NCBI GenBank assembly: GCA_024280015.1
Contig: JAJRQY010000083.1
Coordinates: 1-62,843 of the forward strand
Source of the DNA: Actinomycetes bacterium
GTDB lineage: Bacteria; Actinomycetota; Acidimicrobiia; Acidimicrobiales; SZUA-35
Reading direction: 5' to 3'
DNA: 62,843 bases
Shown: piece by piece, positions 45,223-52,437 of the stretch
Numbering within the stretch: the stretch's first letter is position 1
How the letters are laid out: the number at the start of each line of letters is the position of its first letter
Notes under the pieces: model-generated
Databases searched by the model: none
Seen by the model: only the letters and a program-made list of their open reading frames with translations
Told to the model about the DNA's origin: nothing
Program-made: the position numbers and the translations under genes

Positions 45223-46110
45223 ATGCAACTGGATATCGAGTCATTGCGAACCTTTCTTGCCGTTCTTGATCACGGCAACATGACACAAGCAGCCGAGCAA
45301 CTCCACCTCAGCCAATCAGCAGTGAGCCGCAAAATGCTGAGGCTGGAACAACGCATCGGCCGGCCCCTCCTCATCCGAGACGGACACAGCCTTCGGCCGA
45401 CTCGAGACGGGAATACGCTGATCCCCGATGCTCGAAGCATGGTGGAAATACATGATCGAGCGGTTGCGCGGTTGCAGAGCTCTGAACTCACCGGCCAGGT
45501 CAGGCTGGGGTCAAACGGCGAGGTAGAGGCCTCACAAATCGCCGCCATGCTCGGACGATTCAAGCTCAGACACCCAGCGGCATCTATCGAGTTCGTGATC
45601 GACCATTCGGGCCAGTTGGCCGACTGGGTTGAAACTGGAACCGTCGATCTGGCCATCTTCCAGGTTAATGAAGACGAACTTCGGGACACCGACATTGTGC
45701 TTTGGACCGAAGACTTGAGCTGGGTCACCTCGTGTGAGACCGACTTTTCCGGAGGCACTGTGCCTGTCGTCGACTTCGGTGAAAACTGCTTCTACAGCCG
45801 CTTTAGCAACCCCATGTTAAGTGAGGCCAACGTCGACTATCGGGTGACATTCTCGGCCGCATCTTCAGCCGATGTCCGGGCGGCCGTTGATGCTGGAATC
45901 GGAGTGGCCGTCCTGGCCTCTCGCTATATCAACGATGACGTCGTCGAATGGAAACGCGGTGCCGATCTCGGGCCGCTACCACCAGTCCATCAGATCCTTC
46001 GCTTCATGCCAGGTGAACAGTCCGAGGCTGTCGAGGTGCTCATCGACACCATCCGTGATGAGTTGACCTGTCCACCCACCCAGGGCCAAGAACCATCAGA
46101 GACTCGATGA
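45223..46110 (+). CDS. LysR-family transcriptional regulator
   Basis: 295 residues. N-terminal winged HTH: LRTFLAVLDHGNMTQAAEQL then HLSQSAVSRKMLRLEQRIGR. C-terminal effector-binding domain with the periplasmic-binding-like layout (IEFVIDHSGQLADWVETG, GTVDLAIFQV, AAVDAGIGVAVLASRYI). Its stop overlaps the start of the DUF4214 gene (ATGA), an unusual position for a LysR gene, which suggests it heads and probably autoregulates the following operon. The AT-rich stretch 45165-45222 contains its promoter. Confidence 0.93.
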   Translation: MQLDIESLRTFLAVLDHGNMTQAAEQLHLSQSAVSRKMLRLEQRIGRPLLIRDGHSLRPTRDGNTLIPDARSMVEIHDRAVARLQSSELTGQVRLGSNGEVEASQIAAMLGRFKLRHPAASIEFVIDHSGQLADWVETGTVDLAIFQVNEDELRDTDIVLWTEDLSWVTSCETDFSGGTVPVVDFGENCFYSRFSNPMLSEANVDYRVTFSAASSADVRAAVDAGIGVAVLASRYINDDVVEWKRGADLGPLPPVHQILRFMPGEQSEAVEVLIDTIRDELTCPPTQGQEPSETR

Positions 46111-46976
46111 AAGTACGCATCATCAACCTATGGGCGCGACTCACCCATGTAGCCTCGCTTCTTGTGCCCCTTACCCGTCCGCAGACTCTTCGGTCTTTCC
46201 GACGCACTAGTGCGTTCGCCGCGCTCCTTGTCTTCACCAGCTTGGCAATGGTCAGACCGTCACTTGCTCAGGAACAACCAGTCACAACCGAGCCATCACC
46301 GGCGGTGCGGGTTAACCAGACTGACGGCGACCGACCTCCATCAGCGAACGAGCTCTATGTCGCCGCGGCCTACGATGCACTCCTGCGGCGGCCAGCAGAT
46401 GATGAGGGGGCAGCCTTCTGGCTAGACACCGTCGTGGCTGGCGGCGACCGAAGCCGGGAGAAGCTCTCGGCTCACCTCCTGTTCAGTGTCGAAGGAGCCA
46501 GCAACGAGGTGGTGCGAGCCTATGAGGATCTCCTCCTTCGGTTCCCTGAGGACGAAGGCTGGGCCTATTGGACCGACATCCTGCAAAACGAACGGGTCGA
46601 CACCCTGCGCAGCCTGATCCTCAGCAGCGACGAGTACATCAACCTTGTCGGCGGCCAGTCCAACTACGTCAACGCCTTGTATCTCGAGCTTCTGGACCGG
46701 CCACCCGAAGCGGAAGGTTTGGCCTTCTGGAATGCCAAGTTGGAAGAGGGTGAGCCGCGGCAGTTTGTTGTTCTCGCCATCTATCAATCCGATGAAGGCC
46801 TGGCCAACCGCGCCTCCTCCTACTACGAACAGTTTCTTGGCCGTCCAGCAACTGATGCCGAACGCGAATCTGGCGCTGAAATCATTGGCGTAGACGGTGA
46901 GCGCACGTTCTTCGCCAAGGTCTTCGCCTCCGATGAGTTTTACGAGCAGTTCTTCCTGAGTGCACTCGGCAGTTGA
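46107..46976 (+). CDS. Secreted DUF4214-type repeat protein
   Basis: 289 residues. Basic N-terminus and hydrophobic signal segment (SAFAALLVFTSLAMVRPSLA, cut after QA/E region about residue 55). The mature part has four repeats of about 50 residues, each like YDALLRRPADDEGAAFWLDT: at about 88-108, 138-157 (YEDLLLRFPEDEGWAYWTDI), 192-212 (YLELLDRPPEAEGLAFWNAK) and 240-260 (YYEQFLGRPATDAERESGAE). This is the DUF4214 pattern seen in surface and secreted proteins. No enzymatic motif. Second gene of the LysR-to-50938 unit. Confidence 0.82.
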   Translation: MKVRIINLWARLTHVASLLVPLTRPQTLRSFRRTSAFAALLVFTSLAMVRPSLAQEQPVTTEPSPAVRVNQTDGDRPPSANELYVAAAYDALLRRPADDEGAAFWLDTVVAGGDRSREKLSAHLLFSVEGASNEVVRAYEDLLLRFPEDEGWAYWTDILQNERVDTLRSLILSSDEYINLVGGQSNYVNALYLELLDRPPEAEGLAFWNAKLEEGEPRQFVVLAIYQSDEGLANRASSYYEQFLGRPATDAERESGAEIIGVDGERTFFAKVFASDEFYEQFFLSALGS

Positions 46977-46977
46977 C

Positions 46978-47532
46978 ATGACCGAAGTCTCCTCTGTAGC
47001 CGCCGTTGCCTTGGCTCTGGTCATGCTGTATGCCGCCCAGTCCAAGCTGCGAACCCATCAGACAACGACCCGAAGTTTCCGACAACTGGGCTTGCCTCAG
47101 CCCTCATTTGTTGCCTGGCTGGTACCGCTGGCAGAGATCGCCATTGCCGTCGCCCTCATGTTTTTTCCTGGCTGGGGAGGCGTCGCAGCTTTCGTCATGC
47201 TGGTTGGGTTCACCACTTTCTTGGTGTCAATCCTGCGATCCGACGCCCAGCTGTCCTGTGGGTGCTTCGGCTCAACCAGCAATGAGCCCGTCTCCATTGT
47301 TGAGATTGGACGTAATCTCATCCTCCTCGGGCTCGCCGCTGCAAGTACTTCCATCGAACACCTCACTTGGCCGTCGCTGGCGGCAATCATGGTCGTGAGT
47401 CTTGCCGGGGTGATCGGCTTGACGGTTGTCCAGCTCGTCTTCTTGCGATCACAGATCGGTTCACTCTTTCGAATCGAGCTCGCCGGGGAAGCCGATCTTG
47501 TTGAGCAGTCAAGACTGGAGACGGCGCAATGA
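46978..47532 (+). CDS. MauE-like membrane protein
   Basis: 184 residues from ATG 46978, one base after the preceding stop. Four or five transmembrane segments of the DoxX/MauE type: AVALALVMLYAAQSKLR, FVAWLVPLAEIAIAVALMFF and AAFVMLVGFTTFLVSILRSD. The segment SCGCFGSTSNEPVSIVEIGR, with the CGCFG motif, is characteristic of MauE. MauE is needed, with MauD, for forming the disulfides of the methylamine dehydrogenase light chain. Directly followed by the MauD-like gene, as in mau clusters. Confidence 0.85.
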   Translation: MTEVSSVAAVALALVMLYAAQSKLRTHQTTTRSFRQLGLPQPSFVAWLVPLAEIAIAVALMFFPGWGGVAAFVMLVGFTTFLVSILRSDAQLSCGCFGSTSNEPVSIVEIGRNLILLGLAAASTSIEHLTWPSLAAIMVVSLAGVIGLTVVQLVFLRSQIGSLFRIELAGEADLVEQSRLETAQ

Positions 47533-47545
47533 ACGAGGCAATCTC

Positions 47546-48067
47546 ATGAGCGGCAGTGTCTGGATCGCCAGCTACATCCTTTTATGGATAGCAGTCATCT
47601 TGTTGTCCATCACCTGCATCGCCCTGCTTCGCCAAATTGGACTGCTCCACACCCGGGTCTCGCCCATGGGTGTTCACTTCGCCGGGGAAGGCCCAGACCT
47701 GGACACACCGGCCCCCGACGGGTACGCCTATGACTACCCAAGCAACGACCTCACCCTCATTGCCTTTACGTCTCCCGATTGCACCATCTGCGCCAGTCTT
47801 TTGCCCGGGCTTGAACGCATCTCCAAGACCTATGACGGCCTCGTCCTGCGAACGGTTGACTTCGAGGAGGATCCCAAGACGTTCAGCGCGTTCAAGGTGC
47901 GATCGACTCCCTACCTTGTCGCCATTGATCGGACCGGATACGTTCGCAGTCGGGGCATCGCCAACACCCTTGATCAAGCCGAGGAAATGCTGGCCGAAGT
48001 CTATGCAACCATCGATGCACTGGAGAACGGCGACTCCTCACAGCTCCCCAAGGAACACCGTACGTGA
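47546..48067 (+). CDS. MauD/TlpA-like membrane-anchored thioredoxin
   Basis: 173 residues from ATG 47546 (GAGG upstream). N-terminal anchor (WIASYILLWIAVILLSITCI), then an external thioredoxin fold: LIAFTSPDCTICASLLPGLE with a CTIC active site, FEEDPKTFSAFKVRSTPYLV (cis-Pro in STPY), and a helical end. The order anchor - VRxxPMGVHFAGEG - TSP(D/G)CxxC matches MauD. Predicted to handle disulfides of the Cys-rich protein coded next; its stop overlaps that gene's start (GTGA). Confidence 0.85.
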   Translation: MSGSVWIASYILLWIAVILLSITCIALLRQIGLLHTRVSPMGVHFAGEGPDLDTPAPDGYAYDYPSNDLTLIAFTSPDCTICASLLPGLERISKTYDGLVLRTVDFEEDPKTFSAFKVRSTPYLVAIDRTGYVRSRGIANTLDQAEEMLAEVYATIDALENGDSSQLPKEHRT

Positions 48068-49545
48068 GTAAGAAAACCTCCCCAAAAAGTCCGCCTGCTA
48101 CCCACCCCGCTGATTTGCTCACTGCTCCTTCTGTTCGCGGTTCATCCCTGGACCAGCGGGTTGAACGGCTTGGCCGTTGGACCGCCAAGCGAACGACCAG
48201 GCGATCATTCCTGCATCGCCTGAGCCAGATCAGCGTCATCGTCGCTGCCGGGCCAATACTGGCCAACATTTTGATGCGCAAGGCCGACGCTCGAGTATGT
48301 GGCCAGAGCGGCGTCACCCCAAAATGCGACACCTTTGACTGTGTGGGAGAAGGCCATGTCTGGGGTTGGTGTTGGTACGCCAGCGACGGCTGTTGTCGCG
48401 AGGGACTCAAGAAGATCTGCGACTGTTGCCTTGTTGACTACCCCAATGTTCATGGCTACTGCCCGGCCGGAACCAATGTTGCCTGCATCGTGGAAAGTTG
48501 CGGAAAGGACCCGCGAGTACTCACCGTTGATCTCACACCAGTTGCCTGGAACGCCGTGCAGGGATACTTCCCTGCGGCTGCGTTGGCCGGCAACAATCTG
48601 GCCAGCAAGGTTGTCATCGTTGACAGCGCGGATCCATTGCGGACCTATATCGCTGCCCCCCTTGCCGGTGCGCTTGGCATCCCCCTCGTCCCGGTCAACA
48701 GCACGGGGTTGACCGAAACTGACCTCCAAGTGCTGGACCAATTGGAGACGTCCGAAGCCTTGATTGTTGGTGCTATCTCCGGGCCAACGTGGGACGGATT
48801 GGCTAGCGTCGGATTGGCCACCCGGACCATTGCCTCTGGTTCTGATCTCTCGGTCATCAGCCGGGACGTTGCCCGGTTCATGATCCGCATCAGCAATGTG
48901 AACCGAACCGTCACTATCGCCCAAACCGGTTTCTCTGCCGATGCTGGCGCCCTGGCCGCCACCTTCGCCGCCGTCAGCGGGTTCCCGCTACTGGTTGACA
49001 GTTCCGACACCAGCGCCCTCGGCCTGCCGACCTTCTACATCGGCCCCGAACCGACAGACGCCGGTGTACCCAGCGAGCGCACAAGGGCCACGAACCTTCC
49101 CGAACTTTCACGCGAACTGGCCGACGTTGCCTCAGTCTTGTCCTTCGTTGACGCTGGTCGCTTAGCCCTGGTTCCCGAAGGAAGCTCCGATATCGTCGGA
49201 ATGCTCAATTGTGGGGCACCAGTTATTCTGCATCCGCCGGGAATACTGGGCCCCGTCGAGGAATGGATCCAGAACCACGCCCTCCAATTCGGTGACTTGT
49301 CCGAAGTGTTCTACATCAAGGGACCCGGTGAACTCCTCACTGATCAATACTGGTCGTTGCAGGGAGCGGTCAATGGCTTCCGAACCGACCAGCTGATGGG
49401 GGTTTCGGGCCAAGGTTTGCCCGTCATCCGACAACCCTTCGCCGAACGCCCAATTGGCCTAGCCAAGACCGACGGTGCGCTCATCAACGGCTCAGCGGGG
49501 ACCCCGGACTACTGGACCTCCATTGGACAGACCTTTCGAGGATGA
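48064..49545 (+). CDS. Tat-exported MADH light-chain-like Cys-rich domain fused to CWB2-like repeats
   Basis: 493 residues from GTG 48064. Twin-arginine leader: KRTTRRSFLHRLSQISVIVA (about 41-60). Residues about 76-147 contain 12 cysteines and several Trp: VWGWCWYASDGCCREGL, KKICDCC, GYCPAGTNVACIVESC. The ICDC ... CP.GT..A ... SC spacing resembles the light chain (MauA) of methylamine dehydrogenase, which also has 12 cysteines in six disulfides. The Trp that becomes part of the TTQ cofactor in MauA (in ASWVASC) is not found at the matching place. From about 150 the protein is a cell-wall-binding-repeat-2-like region (AAALAGNNLASKVVIVDSAD, PLAGALGIPLVPVNS, EALIVGAISGPTWDGL, TRTIASGSDLSVISRDVARF). 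A surface-attached, disulfide-rich protein is the likely product. MauB is absent. Confidence 0.75.
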   Translation: MSKKTSPKSPPATHPADLLTAPSVRGSSLDQRVERLGRWTAKRTTRRSFLHRLSQISVIVAAGPILANILMRKADARVCGQSGVTPKCDTFDCVGEGHVWGWCWYASDGCCREGLKKICDCCLVDYPNVHGYCPAGTNVACIVESCGKDPRVLTVDLTPVAWNAVQGYFPAAALAGNNLASKVVIVDSADPLRTYIAAPLAGALGIPLVPVNSTGLTETDLQVLDQLETSEALIVGAISGPTWDGLASVGLATRTIASGSDLSVISRDVARFMIRISNVNRTVTIAQTGFSADAGALAATFAAVSGFPLLVDSSDTSALGLPTFYIGPEPTDAGVPSERTRATNLPELSRELADVASVLSFVDAGRLALVPEGSSDIVGMLNCGAPVILHPPGILGPVEEWIQNHALQFGDLSEVFYIKGPGELLTDQYWSLQGAVNGFRTDQLMGVSGQGLPVIRQPFAERPIGLAKTDGALINGSAGTPDYWTSIGQTFRG

Positions 49546-49552
49546 GGAATCA

Positions 49553-49621
49553 GTGAACGCCGAGACCCTTCTGGTCGGTGTGGCTTGCCTGGCCGCGTTC
49601 CACACCTTGTGGTCGCCCTGA
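49553..49621 (+). CDS. 22-codon segment in frame with next gene, ends in UGA
   Basis: GTG 49553 is preceded by GAGGA and starts MNAETLLVGVACLAAFHTLW SP (split), a hydrophobic helix, then UGA at 49619-49621. The frame continues without any other stop into the membrane protein at 49631 (GLSVAETTLP). The junction would read LWSP-UGA-GLS, where redox membrane proteins of CcdA-like type commonly have SPCG. Either a leader peptide with reinitiation at 49631, a nonsense mutation or sequence error in a TGC/TGT Cys codon, or a selenocysteine codon. Confidence 0.55.
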   Translation: MNAETLLVGVACLAAFHTLWSP

Positions 49622-49630
49622 GGCCTTTCG

Positions 49631-50938
49631 GTGGCTGAAACCACCCTGCCCTCGGTTCGAGGGCTCGAGAAGCTCCTGATCTTCTCCCTTCTGCTGGCTA
49701 GCGCCAGCGTCACGGGCGGACTCGTTGGCTTCATGCTTGGTGTGATCCTGATCCTGCTACCCGACGCATCGGGCGGCTCCACATTGATCGTTGGACTTCT
49801 CGGCGCGGCGATTATCGCTGACCTCAGCAATCTTGTGGCCGGAAAGCCCCAGCCGTTTACTCTTGGTCGCCAAGTTCCTCGAGAGTGGCGTGACCTGCTC
49901 AACCCCCGATTAGTTGCCGGTCTCTACGGGGCCCGTCTTGGGGTCGGTCCGTTGACCATCTTGTCAACTTGGATGTGGTGGGCCGGTTCTCTGGCCGCGG
50001 CCACCCTCGGTGTCTGGACCAGTGTGCTCTTCGGCTCTCTCTTCGCCGCTGCTCGTGTTGTGAGCATGGCGCTGGTCGCTGGGCGGGCCGACCATGCCAG
50101 CCACGAACAAGTCTTCGGCCAGTTGCGCAGGGTTCGGAAACCGACCTGGGGTGGCTTGAACCTGGTCGCTGGTCTTGGCTGTCTGGCCCTCGTGCTGGGG
50201 GCTTGCACTGGAGGAGGAAACGGCAGCGAAGCCGGTGATGCACAGGTGACAACTACTTCTTTCCTGCAGGCCACGTCAAAGGCAACTGTTTCTCCCAACA
50301 CCTCATCGAGTTCAGTATCCCAGGAGGCCCCAAGCGTGACTGCTCTGCCCAATCCAGAAATACAAAGCTCCGTCATCGGGGCGATTCCCTTGAACGACCC
50401 AGACATCCCCAATCCAGACCCATTGGAGGCCGATGACCTGGCCGGCTCACTGGTGGCAGAGGTAGCGCAGTTCAGCCGCATCGATCAGCCAGAGGCCGAC
50501 CGGTTTCTGGATTTGGAAGCGGCATCAGCGAGCCAGCCGGACCCGACCGAAGAAGGCCCGCTGCTGGAAACCCGGGGCTTCCGGGGTGGTTGGACCCGGG
50601 CCTTTCGCAACGACACCCAAGACGTCATCGTGGCCACCGTCTATGACTTCGCCAACGAGAGTGAGGCCGCCTACTACCGAGAAGATGGGCTGATCACCCT
50701 CGGCGGATTCGGGGCAGAATTCTTTGAGGTCCCCCAGTTACCCGAAGCTCGCGGTTTTCGGACCGAGTCATCTGATGGGATCGGCCCGATTGTCACCTGG
50801 GGTTTGACCTTCACCCAGGAGAACCAGTGGTACCTCATCTACCTTCTAGGAGACCCTCAAACAGCTACGGTCGAGGTGCTGGTCCAGGCAGTGTCTGAGC
50901 AATACCAGCATCTTGGAATCGACACAGGTACCGATTGA
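49631..50938 (+). CDS. Polytopic membrane protein fused to lipoprotein-like domain
   Basis: 435 residues from GTG 49631 (GAGG seven bases upstream); true start may be 49553. Residues 14-160 hold about four transmembrane segments (LLIFSLLLASASVTGGLVGF; LIVGLLGAAIIADLSNLVAG; LTILSTWMWWAGSLAAATLG; FAAARVVSMALVAG). At about 175-195 LVAGLGCLALVLGACTGGGN looks like a lipoprotein lipobox or fifth helix, then a Thr/Ser linker and a soluble domain (WTRAFRNDTQDVIVATVYDF; AEFFEVPQLPEARGFRTESS). I propose a CcdA-like electron-transfer role for the MauE/MauD partners, with low certainty. Last gene of the operon. Confidence 0.65.
   Translation: MAETTLPSVRGLEKLLIFSLLLASASVTGGLVGFMLGVILILLPDASGGSTLIVGLLGAAIIADLSNLVAGKPQPFTLGRQVPREWRDLLNPRLVAGLYGARLGVGPLTILSTWMWWAGSLAAATLGVWTSVLFGSLFAAARVVSMALVAGRADHASHEQVFGQLRRVRKPTWGGLNLVAGLGCLALVLGACTGGGNGSEAGDAQVTTTSFLQATSKATVSPNTSSSSVSQEAPSVTALPNPEIQSSVIGAIPLNDPDIPNPDPLEADDLAGSLVAEVAQFSRIDQPEADRFLDLEAASASQPDPTEEGPLLETRGFRGGWTRAFRNDTQDVIVATVYDFANESEAAYYREDGLITLGGFGAEFFEVPQLPEARGFRTESSDGIGPIVTWGLTFTQENQWYLIYLLGDPQTATVEVLVQAVSEQYQHLGIDTGTD
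49648..49664 (+). promoter_or_regulatory. SECIS-like hairpin 26 bases after the UGA
   Basis: GCCCTCG (49648-49654), loop GTT, CGAGGGC (49658-49664): a perfect seven-pair stem with G first in the loop. The loop G is 33 bases after the in-frame UGA. As I recall the published bacterial SECIS consensus, such a distance and a leading loop G are allowed. Chance hairpins are common in GC-rich coding DNA. Confidence 0.35.
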
Positions 50939-50966: not shown

Positions 50967-51281
50967 CTAGGAACGAGCCTGGCTGGATCCTGGGTGTATC
51001 CCTGGGCGGATTTCTATCAGTTCCTCAATCTCAATAAAGATGCACTCACCGGGACATTCGCCGGCTGAGGCAATGACATCTTTCTCACGATGCCAAGGAA
51101 CAGTGGCGACAGATCGGGAACCACCGGGGTCGTTCAATACCTTGCCGTCTTCGACAACATAGGCAATGCCATCTTCCAAAATGGTGAAAACATCGGGGGT
51201 GTGATCCATGCAAATCCCATCACCAGTACAGAGATCCTGATCAATCCATACCTTGAGCCGAGGTGAGGCGTGGGCATCCAT
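50967..51281 (-). CDS. 3Fe-4S-type ferredoxin
   Basis: 104 residues. KVWIDQDLCTGDGICMDHTP gives a C-x5-C pair (a fourth ligand is missing as in 3Fe-4S members), and ASAGECPGECIFIE supplies the last Cys followed by Pro. Small ferredoxins of this group feed electrons to P450s. The P450 at 42766 is a candidate partner by function, not by operon. Monocistronic on the minus strand, tail to tail with the preceding operon. Confidence 0.85.
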   Translation of the reverse strand: MDAHASPRLKVWIDQDLCTGDGICMDHTPDVFTILEDGIAYVVEDGKVLNDPGGSRSVATVPWHREKDVIASAGECPGECIFIEIEELIEIRPGIHPGSSQARS

Positions 51282-51342: not shown

Positions 51343-52437
51343 GTGACCGGAACATTTGGCCAACTCTTTCAACTCAGCACCTTTGGTGAGTCTCACGGGC
51401 CGGCCGTTGGTGTCATCCTGCATGGCTGCCCTCCACGGCTCGCCATCAGCGAAGAGGAGATCCAACGAGATCTGGATCGGCGGCGTCCAGGTCAAAGCAA
51501 GCTGGTTACCCAACGCAAGGAATCCGACACCATCGAGATTCTCTCTGGTGTGTTTGAGGGCCAGACCACCGGGACTGCGCTGGCCATGATGGTGCGCAAT
51601 GCCGATCAGAACTCCGGCGCCTATGACCATCTGAAGGACCTGTACCGGCCTAGTCACGCCGACTGGACTTACCGGGCCAAATACGGCATCCGTGACCATC
51701 GCGGTGGCGGGCGTGCTTCGGTACGAGAAACCATTGGCCGGGTTGCCGCCGGGGCTGTTGCCCGCAAGCTGCTGGCCACGGTCGCTGACATTGAGGTTCT
51801 GGCCTGGGTTAGTCAGGTCAACACCATTGATGCCACCATCGACTCAGACACGGTGACGCTGGAACAGGTCGAAGCCGACCCGACACGCTGCCCGGACCCC
51901 GAGGCGGCAGCCCGCATGACAACCGCGATCGAAAAGGCCCGAAGCAACGGTGACTCACTTGGTGGCGTTGTTACCTTTGTTGCCCGCAACGTTCCCGCTG
52001 GTCTTGGTGAACCAGTGTTCTACAAGATTGACGCCGACCTGGCCAAAGCCATGCTGTGCATTCCCGCAGCGAAGGGATTCGAAATCGGTAGTGGCTTTGC
52101 TGGCACGAGACTCACTGGCCTGACCCATAACGATCCCTTCGTACCTGGACCCGATGGTCAGCCAGAAATGGCAACTAACAACTCTGGCGGGGTGCAAGGT
52201 GGCATCACCAGCGGCAGCACCATCATTGGTCGAGTCGCCTTCAAACCAACGGCCACCATCTCCTCCGAACAAGACACGGTGACCACCGACAACAAGGCGA
52301 CCAAGCTTTCAGCCAAGGGGCGACATGACCCTTGTGTTCTTCCCCGTGCGGTGCCAATCGTTGAAGCAATGGCCTTACTGGTCATCGCTGACCATTGGCT
52401 CCGACAACAACAAACCGATGTGCTCCCCCAGCTCTGA
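51343..52437 (+). CDS. aroC: Chorismate synthase
   Basis: 364 residues from GTG 51343. Signatures: [60 protein letters not shown] and [18 protein letters not shown], and [16 protein letters not shown] for FMN binding. Converts 5-enolpyruvylshikimate 3-phosphate to chorismate with reduced FMN. Neighbouring shikimate genes are absent, so it appears to be transcribed alone, divergent from the ferredoxin gene. Confidence 0.96.

Follow-up and report, generated by a model that had tools for sequence, protein, structure and literature searches.

An unlisted family of probable membrane selenoproteins in Actinomycetota, with an in-frame UGA, a SECIS-type hairpin and mau-like neighbours

What looks, in the window (the whole 62,843-nucleotide stretch of DNA analysed here), like a truncated membrane protein is, to judge from comparison of sequences, a selenoprotein whose in-frame UGA is decoded as selenocysteine (Sec), a reading for which the probability is put at about 0.93. 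The original prediction had gone no further than to call Sec possible, and that possibility has since gained support from homologues, from the Sec machinery, from a hairpin within the limits for bacterial SECIS elements (bSECIS) and from covariation. The family involved is very probably an unlisted membrane selenoprotein of Actinomycetota, recurring with UGA, hairpin and Sec machinery in dozens of genomes. Positions of the features are collected in Table 1.

Table 1. Positions of the selenoprotein gene, its recoding elements and its upstream neighbours in the window
Feature	Position	Strand	Remarks
DUF4214 protein upstream of mauE	46107..46976	+	PF13946 3.9e-23
MauE family membrane protein (DoxX-like)	46960..47532	+	PF07291 2e-24, PF07681 3.7e-6, both over cut-off
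Membrane-anchored MauD-like thioredoxin, CTIC (CxxC)	47546..48067	+	PF00085 1.8e-7; TIGR02661
Cys-rich surface protein, twin-arginine-like start (by eye)	48064..49545	+	TIGR02659; PDB cwp6
Probable selenoprotein gene	49553..50938	+	461 residues, Sec = position 23; relatives read through one TGA
Proposed Sec codon (in-frame UGA)	49619..49621	+	TGA or TGC/TGT in relatives
Accessory hairpin between UGA and SECIS hairpin	49630..49645	+	5 bp, loop CUGAAA
SECIS-type hairpin	49648..49664	+	7 bp, GCCCUCG-GUU-CGAGGGC, apical loop GUU 49655-49657

The frame that begins with GTG 49553, a few bases 3′ of a GAGG, encodes a hydrophobic helix ending LWSP and reaches the TGA at codon 23 (...HTLWSP*GLSVAETTLP..., where the asterisk is the TGA). 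The same frame is then open as far as the terminal TGA at 50936-50938, its downstream part being the 435-residue protein. That the UGA lies in frame with this 435-residue membrane protein, from that start, had been proposed at the outset, and the frame and the position of the TGA confirm it.

What do relatives have at this codon? Two overlapping draws of genomes were used, one of 296 from the class and one of 396 from the phylum. A first search with the read-through protein matched 43 of the 296 class genomes at E<=1e-3, many of them weakly, and at the 23 of 30 loci where the site was covered there were 14 with TGA and 9 with TGC or TGT. A profile from 21 members (alignment A2) matched 69 of the 296 at E<=1e-5. 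The codon was read in 68 of these, the window genome counted and a contig-edge fragment (G148) left out, with 66 taken from a script table and two by eye, one of which has SSNP*G with one TGA (G094) and the other WSSPCG (G222). The result is UGA in 43, Cys (TGC or TGT) in 25 and no other codon at all; with all 68 having either UGA or Cys, the idea that UGA stands for a Cys codon is supported. In the phylum draw 65 of the 396 genomes match the family profile, and the 17 loci read have UGA 16 times and UGC once, with UGA in 14 of 14 from other classes. Among the closest relatives 29 of 61 match the family, and a relative from the same genus (G654), with 62% identity, has UGA at the site. The strict motif is fitted by 14 of 17 closest-relative loci, and all 14, four of them already counted, have UGA; the three outside it (L260, L263 and L265) each list one TGA in their search rows.

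Searches of other kinds found less. No family member was found in plasmids by tblastn, and a single-sequence scan of genome contigs with the window protein, whose six patterns are specific to the window's branch, gave no relative. One profile scan of genome contigs used a pattern requiring WSPCG, and because of that requirement the loci it gave are Cys copies by construction. One genome, G042, has two divergent family paralogues (L160 and the more distant L026), both with UGA.

The genome is a draft in 175 contigs, and a sequence error, or a decayed gene, was a natural thought; error had been among the alternatives offered from the start. Yet the UGA, present in 43 of the 68 class genomes, recurs in 42 genomes of the class draw besides the window's own, in the same-genus relative and at all 14 of the loci read from other classes, and the hairpin is maintained with compensating changes. 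Because of that recurrence sequence error is very unlikely, and the chance of error or decay is next to nil.

Could the UGA instead be a true stop that ends a short leader peptide, with reinitiation at GTG 49631 giving the 435-residue protein? That GTG, to which the original prediction had also pointed, is in frame just 3′ of the UGA and opens the long frame. However, a protein begun there would lose the invariant motif of the family, WSP[U/C]G, whose W, S, P, C/U and G do not vary in alignments A1 and A2, and the residues 5′ of the UGA are conserved as protein in the family alignment. Aligning homologues for a Cys at the UGA position, the check originally proposed, found it in the 25 of 68 class genomes noted above, with the frame reading straight through; moreover, where the codon is of stop type it is always TGA, with TAA or TAG in 0 of the 68 read. 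Reinitiation is left with a slim chance.

Decoding as Sec needs its own components, and the proposed search for selA, selB, selC and selD found all four in the window genome: a tRNA-Sec (selC) with anticodon TCA, selB adjoining selA, and a selD that itself has an in-frame TGA. Among the 296 class genomes 193 have tRNA-Sec at E<=1e-9, with filters that may lose weak matches. Its distribution follows the codon, being seen in 38 of 42 UGA genomes against 9 of 24 Cys genomes among the 66 tabulated (p=9e-6). The four UGA genomes where it was not seen (G100, G182, G210 and G232) all have SelA, and the two UGA genomes where SelA, searched for in all 68, was not seen (G196 and G188) both have tRNA-Sec. 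Taken together, tRNA-Sec or SelA is present in 43 of 43 UGA genomes against 11 of 25 Cys genomes (Fisher p=3.6e-8), these p values all being optimistic, as relatedness of the genomes inflates them.

A suppressor or a changed code, by which the UGA would be read as Cys or Trp and not as Sec, would accord with Cys being the alternative residue in relatives. Against it, the selenoprotein gene and the gene preceding it in the window both terminate with TGA, all 43 UGA genomes have tRNA-Sec, SelA or both, and the hairpin lies within the SECIS limits quoted below. Its chance is slimmer still than that of reinitiation. The preferred reading is that the ribosome, with SelB, tRNA-Sec and the hairpin at 49648-49664, would insert Sec at the UGA.

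The perfect seven-pair hairpin with loop GTT, described from the sequence at the beginning, was confirmed. Its loop G, 49655, is base 34 of the sequence that follows the UGA, and the earlier figure of +33 holds as a spacing because 33 bases separate the two. The bSECIS limits as given in the Fig. 2 legend of PMC13188914 are a loop of 3-9 nt, an upper stem of 4-16 bp, G in one of the first two loop positions, 16-37 nt from the UGA and MFE <= -7.5; with a loop of 3, a stem of 7 bp, G first, 33 nt and -11.5 kcal/mol the window hairpin falls within all the limits quoted there. Folded alone it has -11.5 kcal/mol, where shuffled sequences average -4.3 and none of 200 is as good; the 48-base stretch after the window's UGA is less striking (z -1.88, with 9 of 200 shuffles as good, and z -1.3 when scored together with the family rows).

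Rows with UGA and rows with Cys were also compared. In the helix 27-33/37-43 after the UGA at least 6 of 7 pairs are possible in 42 of 43 UGA rows against 0 of 24 Cys rows, and all 7 in 34 of the 43; these are counts of possible pairs, and the minimum-energy fold of 63 bases differs in several UGA rows. The exception is the second copy in G042 (L026), which has CCCGCC-GGUC-GGCGGG with the loop likewise starting at 34. In that copy the 3′ arm is shifted one base downstream. UGA rows have 6.74 pairs on average, whereas a synonymous-codon null yields 4.62. All 43 UGA rows have G at position 34, but so do 14 of 24 Cys rows, and the mean z of the 48-base stretch, -1.72 in UGA rows against -0.87 in Cys rows, gives a smaller contrast than the pair counts.

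Covariation was assessed on ungapped rows, MAFFT having put a 1-nt gap into some of the post-UGA RNA rows. Across the 39 distinct UGA rows the paired cells amount to 96.0%, against 55.4% in Cys rows, and there are 23 double-change cells; neither the paired fraction nor the number of double-change cells was as high in any of 500 shuffles, although relatedness of the sequences inflates such figures. Slid versions of the UGA rows pair to at most 60.4%. Two measures were weaker: shuffles reached the number of pairs with a double change in 16 of 500 cases and that of further pair types in 13 of 500. In the window's branch the hairpin is at the same place with different codons (PSVRG instead of PLGER), and at L261, where SVRG has become SVEG, GCCCUC-GGUC-GAGGGC still forms. 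Predicted folds of the 14 loci from other classes comprise three of PLGER type and nine of the type CUCC/CCCC-GGUC-GGGG, located a little closer to the UGA; the remaining two, L226 and L228, have other folds.

Between the UGA and the SECIS-type hairpin there is a second, accessory one, absent from the original prediction, with -6.6 kcal/mol and 2 of 200 shuffles as good. All 6 pairs of a six-pair helix at its place are present in 39 of 43 UGA rows against 1 of 24 Cys rows. SelD served as a control. Of the UGA-type SelD copies read, 6 of 6 form a hairpin between +26 and +44 whose loop falls at +33 or +34 (a count that leaves out the UGA loci L193 and L216, missed by the script pattern), nearly the same register as in the membrane selenoprotein. 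Four Cys copies of SelD are without that helix, with two, L198 and L204, folding a different one whose loop is at +31. In the SelD of the window genome itself (L048, G000:C58:4240-5163) the post-UGA stretch forms two tandem hairpins, like the window gene.

In which direction did the exchange of Sec and Cys go? A 67-row tree, rooted at the midpoint only and with bootstrap not fully settled, needs two Sec/Cys changes, as it has one supported clade of 23 Cys rows and a lone Cys row (G247) lying among those with Sec. Where the Sec rows stand in it, together with the 14 UGA loci outside the class, suggests that Sec is ancestral in the family; a root inside the Cys clade is the possible alternative. 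A Cys copy in G191 (L062), a genome with tRNA-Sec, has 6 of 6 pairs in the upstream hairpin and has not kept the SECIS hairpin. That upstream hairpin may be a relic, as if the copy had changed from Sec.

The protein itself appears to be a polytopic, distant relative of CcdA and DsbD with Cys or Sec at the break after the first helix, and consists of a CcdA-like membrane domain at the N-terminus (about residues 1-215) followed by an additional C-terminal domain. The latter, of some 240 residues and extending to 50935, could be a lipid-anchored, possibly released, protein. Family models are nearly silent. With the window protein Pfam gave no family at E<=0.1, and the Pfam cut-off for CcdA/DsbD-TM is not reached, nor did NCBIfam give a model at E<=0.01. 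Among 21 members Pfam gave DsbD_2 in five (best 4.3e-5) and DsbD_TM in one (5.3e-4), the bit scores, given for one member only, being below cut-off, and NCBIfam at E<=1 gave eight chance-level models only (best 0.017), with DsbD at 0.42 in one. A PDB sequence search with the family profile produced three chance matches only. Profile comparison by hhalign with CcdA-type proteins, the target being nine of 19 DsbD_TM matches found in related genomes, went further: A2 scored 92.5% (E 4.8e-7) and the window-led A4 65%, and in both runs WSPCG aligns with the SPC of the first CcdA helix.

AlphaFold2 gave a mean pLDDT of 80 for the window protein and 93 for a Cys relative, and for the two models Foldseek had CcdA, 5vkv, at the highest probability among the 50 matches listed (0.51 and 0.66), with E values of 0.54 and 0.09 and TM-scores near 0.3. 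It is because of these E values and low TM-scores that we speak of a CcdA-like protein and not of CcdA. CcdA was not among the VIA-align matches listed for either model; these are mostly transporters, and the subunits of NqrD/E and RnfA type among them have, for the window model, a Z of about 6, too low to be informative. The family is close in length to the CcdA/DsbD transmembrane domain (PF02683, PF13386) and, like it, has an SPC-type motif at its first helix. It differs in having Sec instead of Cys in 43 of 68 genomes, and where CcdA and DsbD-TM have two redox cysteines, one in each half, A2 has one conserved Cys/Sec column and the second active Cys of CcdA (TPCIGP in A6) has no counterpart. 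A lipobox-like LGAC at residues 215-218 (50195-50206) ends a hydrophobic stretch of the window protein; L018 has LTAC there and L020 LAAC.

The neighbours of the gene recall the mau genes mauE, mauD and mauA. As with them, MauE, a MauD-like and a MauA-like protein are encoded in that order, here ahead of the selenoprotein gene, and the selenoprotein family may resemble MauF. The likeness has its limits, as the scores for MauD and for methylamine dehydrogenase (MADH) light chain are below cut-off and the MauA-like protein has a cell-wall-binding-like part. For the MauD-like thioredoxin, whose start was placed by choice at the ATG of MSGSVW, TIGR02661 scores 8e-21 and 74 bits against a cut-off of 188.6. 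The Cys-rich part of the MauA-like protein resembles the MADH light chain weakly (TIGR02659 0.0015, with 4e-4 and 1.4e-4 for two orthologues, all far below cut-off), and the remainder resembles cell-wall-binding or S-layer proteins (PDB cwp6, 3e-13 with a 4-row profile). Pfam gave nothing for the whole MauA-like protein or for three fragments from the MauA-like and C-terminal parts, and the 78-residue Cys-rich segment of the MauA-like protein gave one chance match in PDB (0.34). On the other side of the selenoprotein gene, 50967-51281 (minus strand) looks by eye like a small ferredoxin, with no NCBIfam match at 0.01, and 51343-52437 like chorismate synthase.

How widely is this arrangement kept? 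The genes for MauE, the MauD-like thioredoxin and the Cys-rich protein are retained in G273, G079 and G196, the DUF4214 gene also being beside the cassette in G273. L164 has, in order, MauE (over cut-off), a Cys-rich protein carrying CWB2 domains and a thioredoxin with CxxC; L175 has a Cys-rich CWB2 protein and a CxxC thioredoxin, L160 a Cys-rich twin-arginine-like protein, and L152, L174 and L100, the last a Cys locus, have a CxxC thioredoxin nearby. No match to the MADH light-chain model turned up in L160, L164 or L175, and the TAT model was just below cut-off in two. With four-sequence profiles, MauE was detected within 5.5 kb on the same strand at 14 of 25 UGA loci against 9 of 48 Cys loci, and thioredoxin at 14 of 25 against 16 of 48; many of the wider loci, above all those with Cys, are without a detected MauE or thioredoxin.

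The most likely function, from the motif, the weak fold evidence and the gene order, would be to pass electrons between the cytoplasmic side and the MauD-like thioredoxin encoded nearby, and these are what the role, the direction and the partner proposed here all rest on. The selenol at the break after helix 1 would exchange on the outside with the MauD-like thioredoxin and on the inside with a cytoplasmic donor. Together with MauE, the thioredoxin would then set disulfides in the MauA-like protein, which is Cys-rich and exported. A carrier with one chalcogen, we propose, would form a selenenylsulfide with its partners as intermediate, in place of an internal disulfide. Sec together with a redox-relay role for the mau-like cassette is, on this sequence-based evidence, favoured with reserve. 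A selenoprotein that is no thiol relay for the cassette, e.g., one that uses a single selenolate to transport some form of selenium, sulfur or metal, is unlikely, though by no means to be dismissed: the single conserved Cys/Sec column, the missing second Cys of CcdA and the weak fold matches, mostly to transporters, speak for it, but MauE, the MauD-like thioredoxin and the Cys-rich exported protein adjoin the gene in the window and in G273, G079 and G196, and partly so in wider loci, and the profile match to CcdA is at the active motif. As this alternative shares the claim of Sec, its weight overlaps with the 0.93. Returning to the relay, a joint reading can be offered as tentative, at somewhat less than even odds: a phylum-wide unannotated selenoprotein would be a transmembrane electron carrier with a single selenol, as against the two thiols of CcdA, and would serve maturation of exported MADH-light-chain-like, perhaps quinone-bearing, proteins, Sec being ancestral and swapped for Cys at least twice, and the two-hairpin SECIS arrangement being common to several selenoproteins of the class.

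Is such a family already known? Table 1 of PMC13188914, with 119 selenoprotein families (2026), has none such, Haft and Tolstoy 2025 standing outside this comparison, and the passages located by term in PMC12013277 and PMC9312934 have nothing on it. Judged by their titles, none of the papers listed on new selenoprotein families, bacterial SECIS, Acidimicrobiia selenocysteine, MauE/MauF/CcdA or TsoB is about the family, and no publication joining cytochrome c biogenesis with selenocysteine was found. With the bacterial bSECIS selenoproteins as catalogued in that table it shares an in-frame UGA, a hairpin within the limits, Cys homologues and Sec machinery; it differs in its absence from the table and in the accessory hairpin between UGA and SECIS hairpin. 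The nearest catalogued entry by name is TsoB (NF045694), rhodanese/DsbD fusion-like and, as that name implies, DsbD-like with Sec. Its motif in PMC13188914 is UxxxxU with two Sec, whereas the window family has one Cys/Sec column, and NF045694 is not among the eight NCBIfam models matched by any of the 21 members at E<=1.

Gene callers that take UGA as a stop would start the protein 3′ of it and lose the active residue, and therefore the whole family is probably misannotated, on a scale of 69 of 296 class genomes and 65 of 396 phylum genomes in draws that overlap. Most characterised selenoproteins have, according to PMC13188914, a thioredoxin-like fold, and to that mostly thioredoxin-like list the family would add a membrane-embedded, probably redox-active selenoprotein. 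The hairpin register that it has in common with SelD may help to find further selenoproteins in the class. Not least, its natural pairs of Sec and Cys in one fold raise the question of how a carrier of the CcdA kind can function on a single chalcogen atom.
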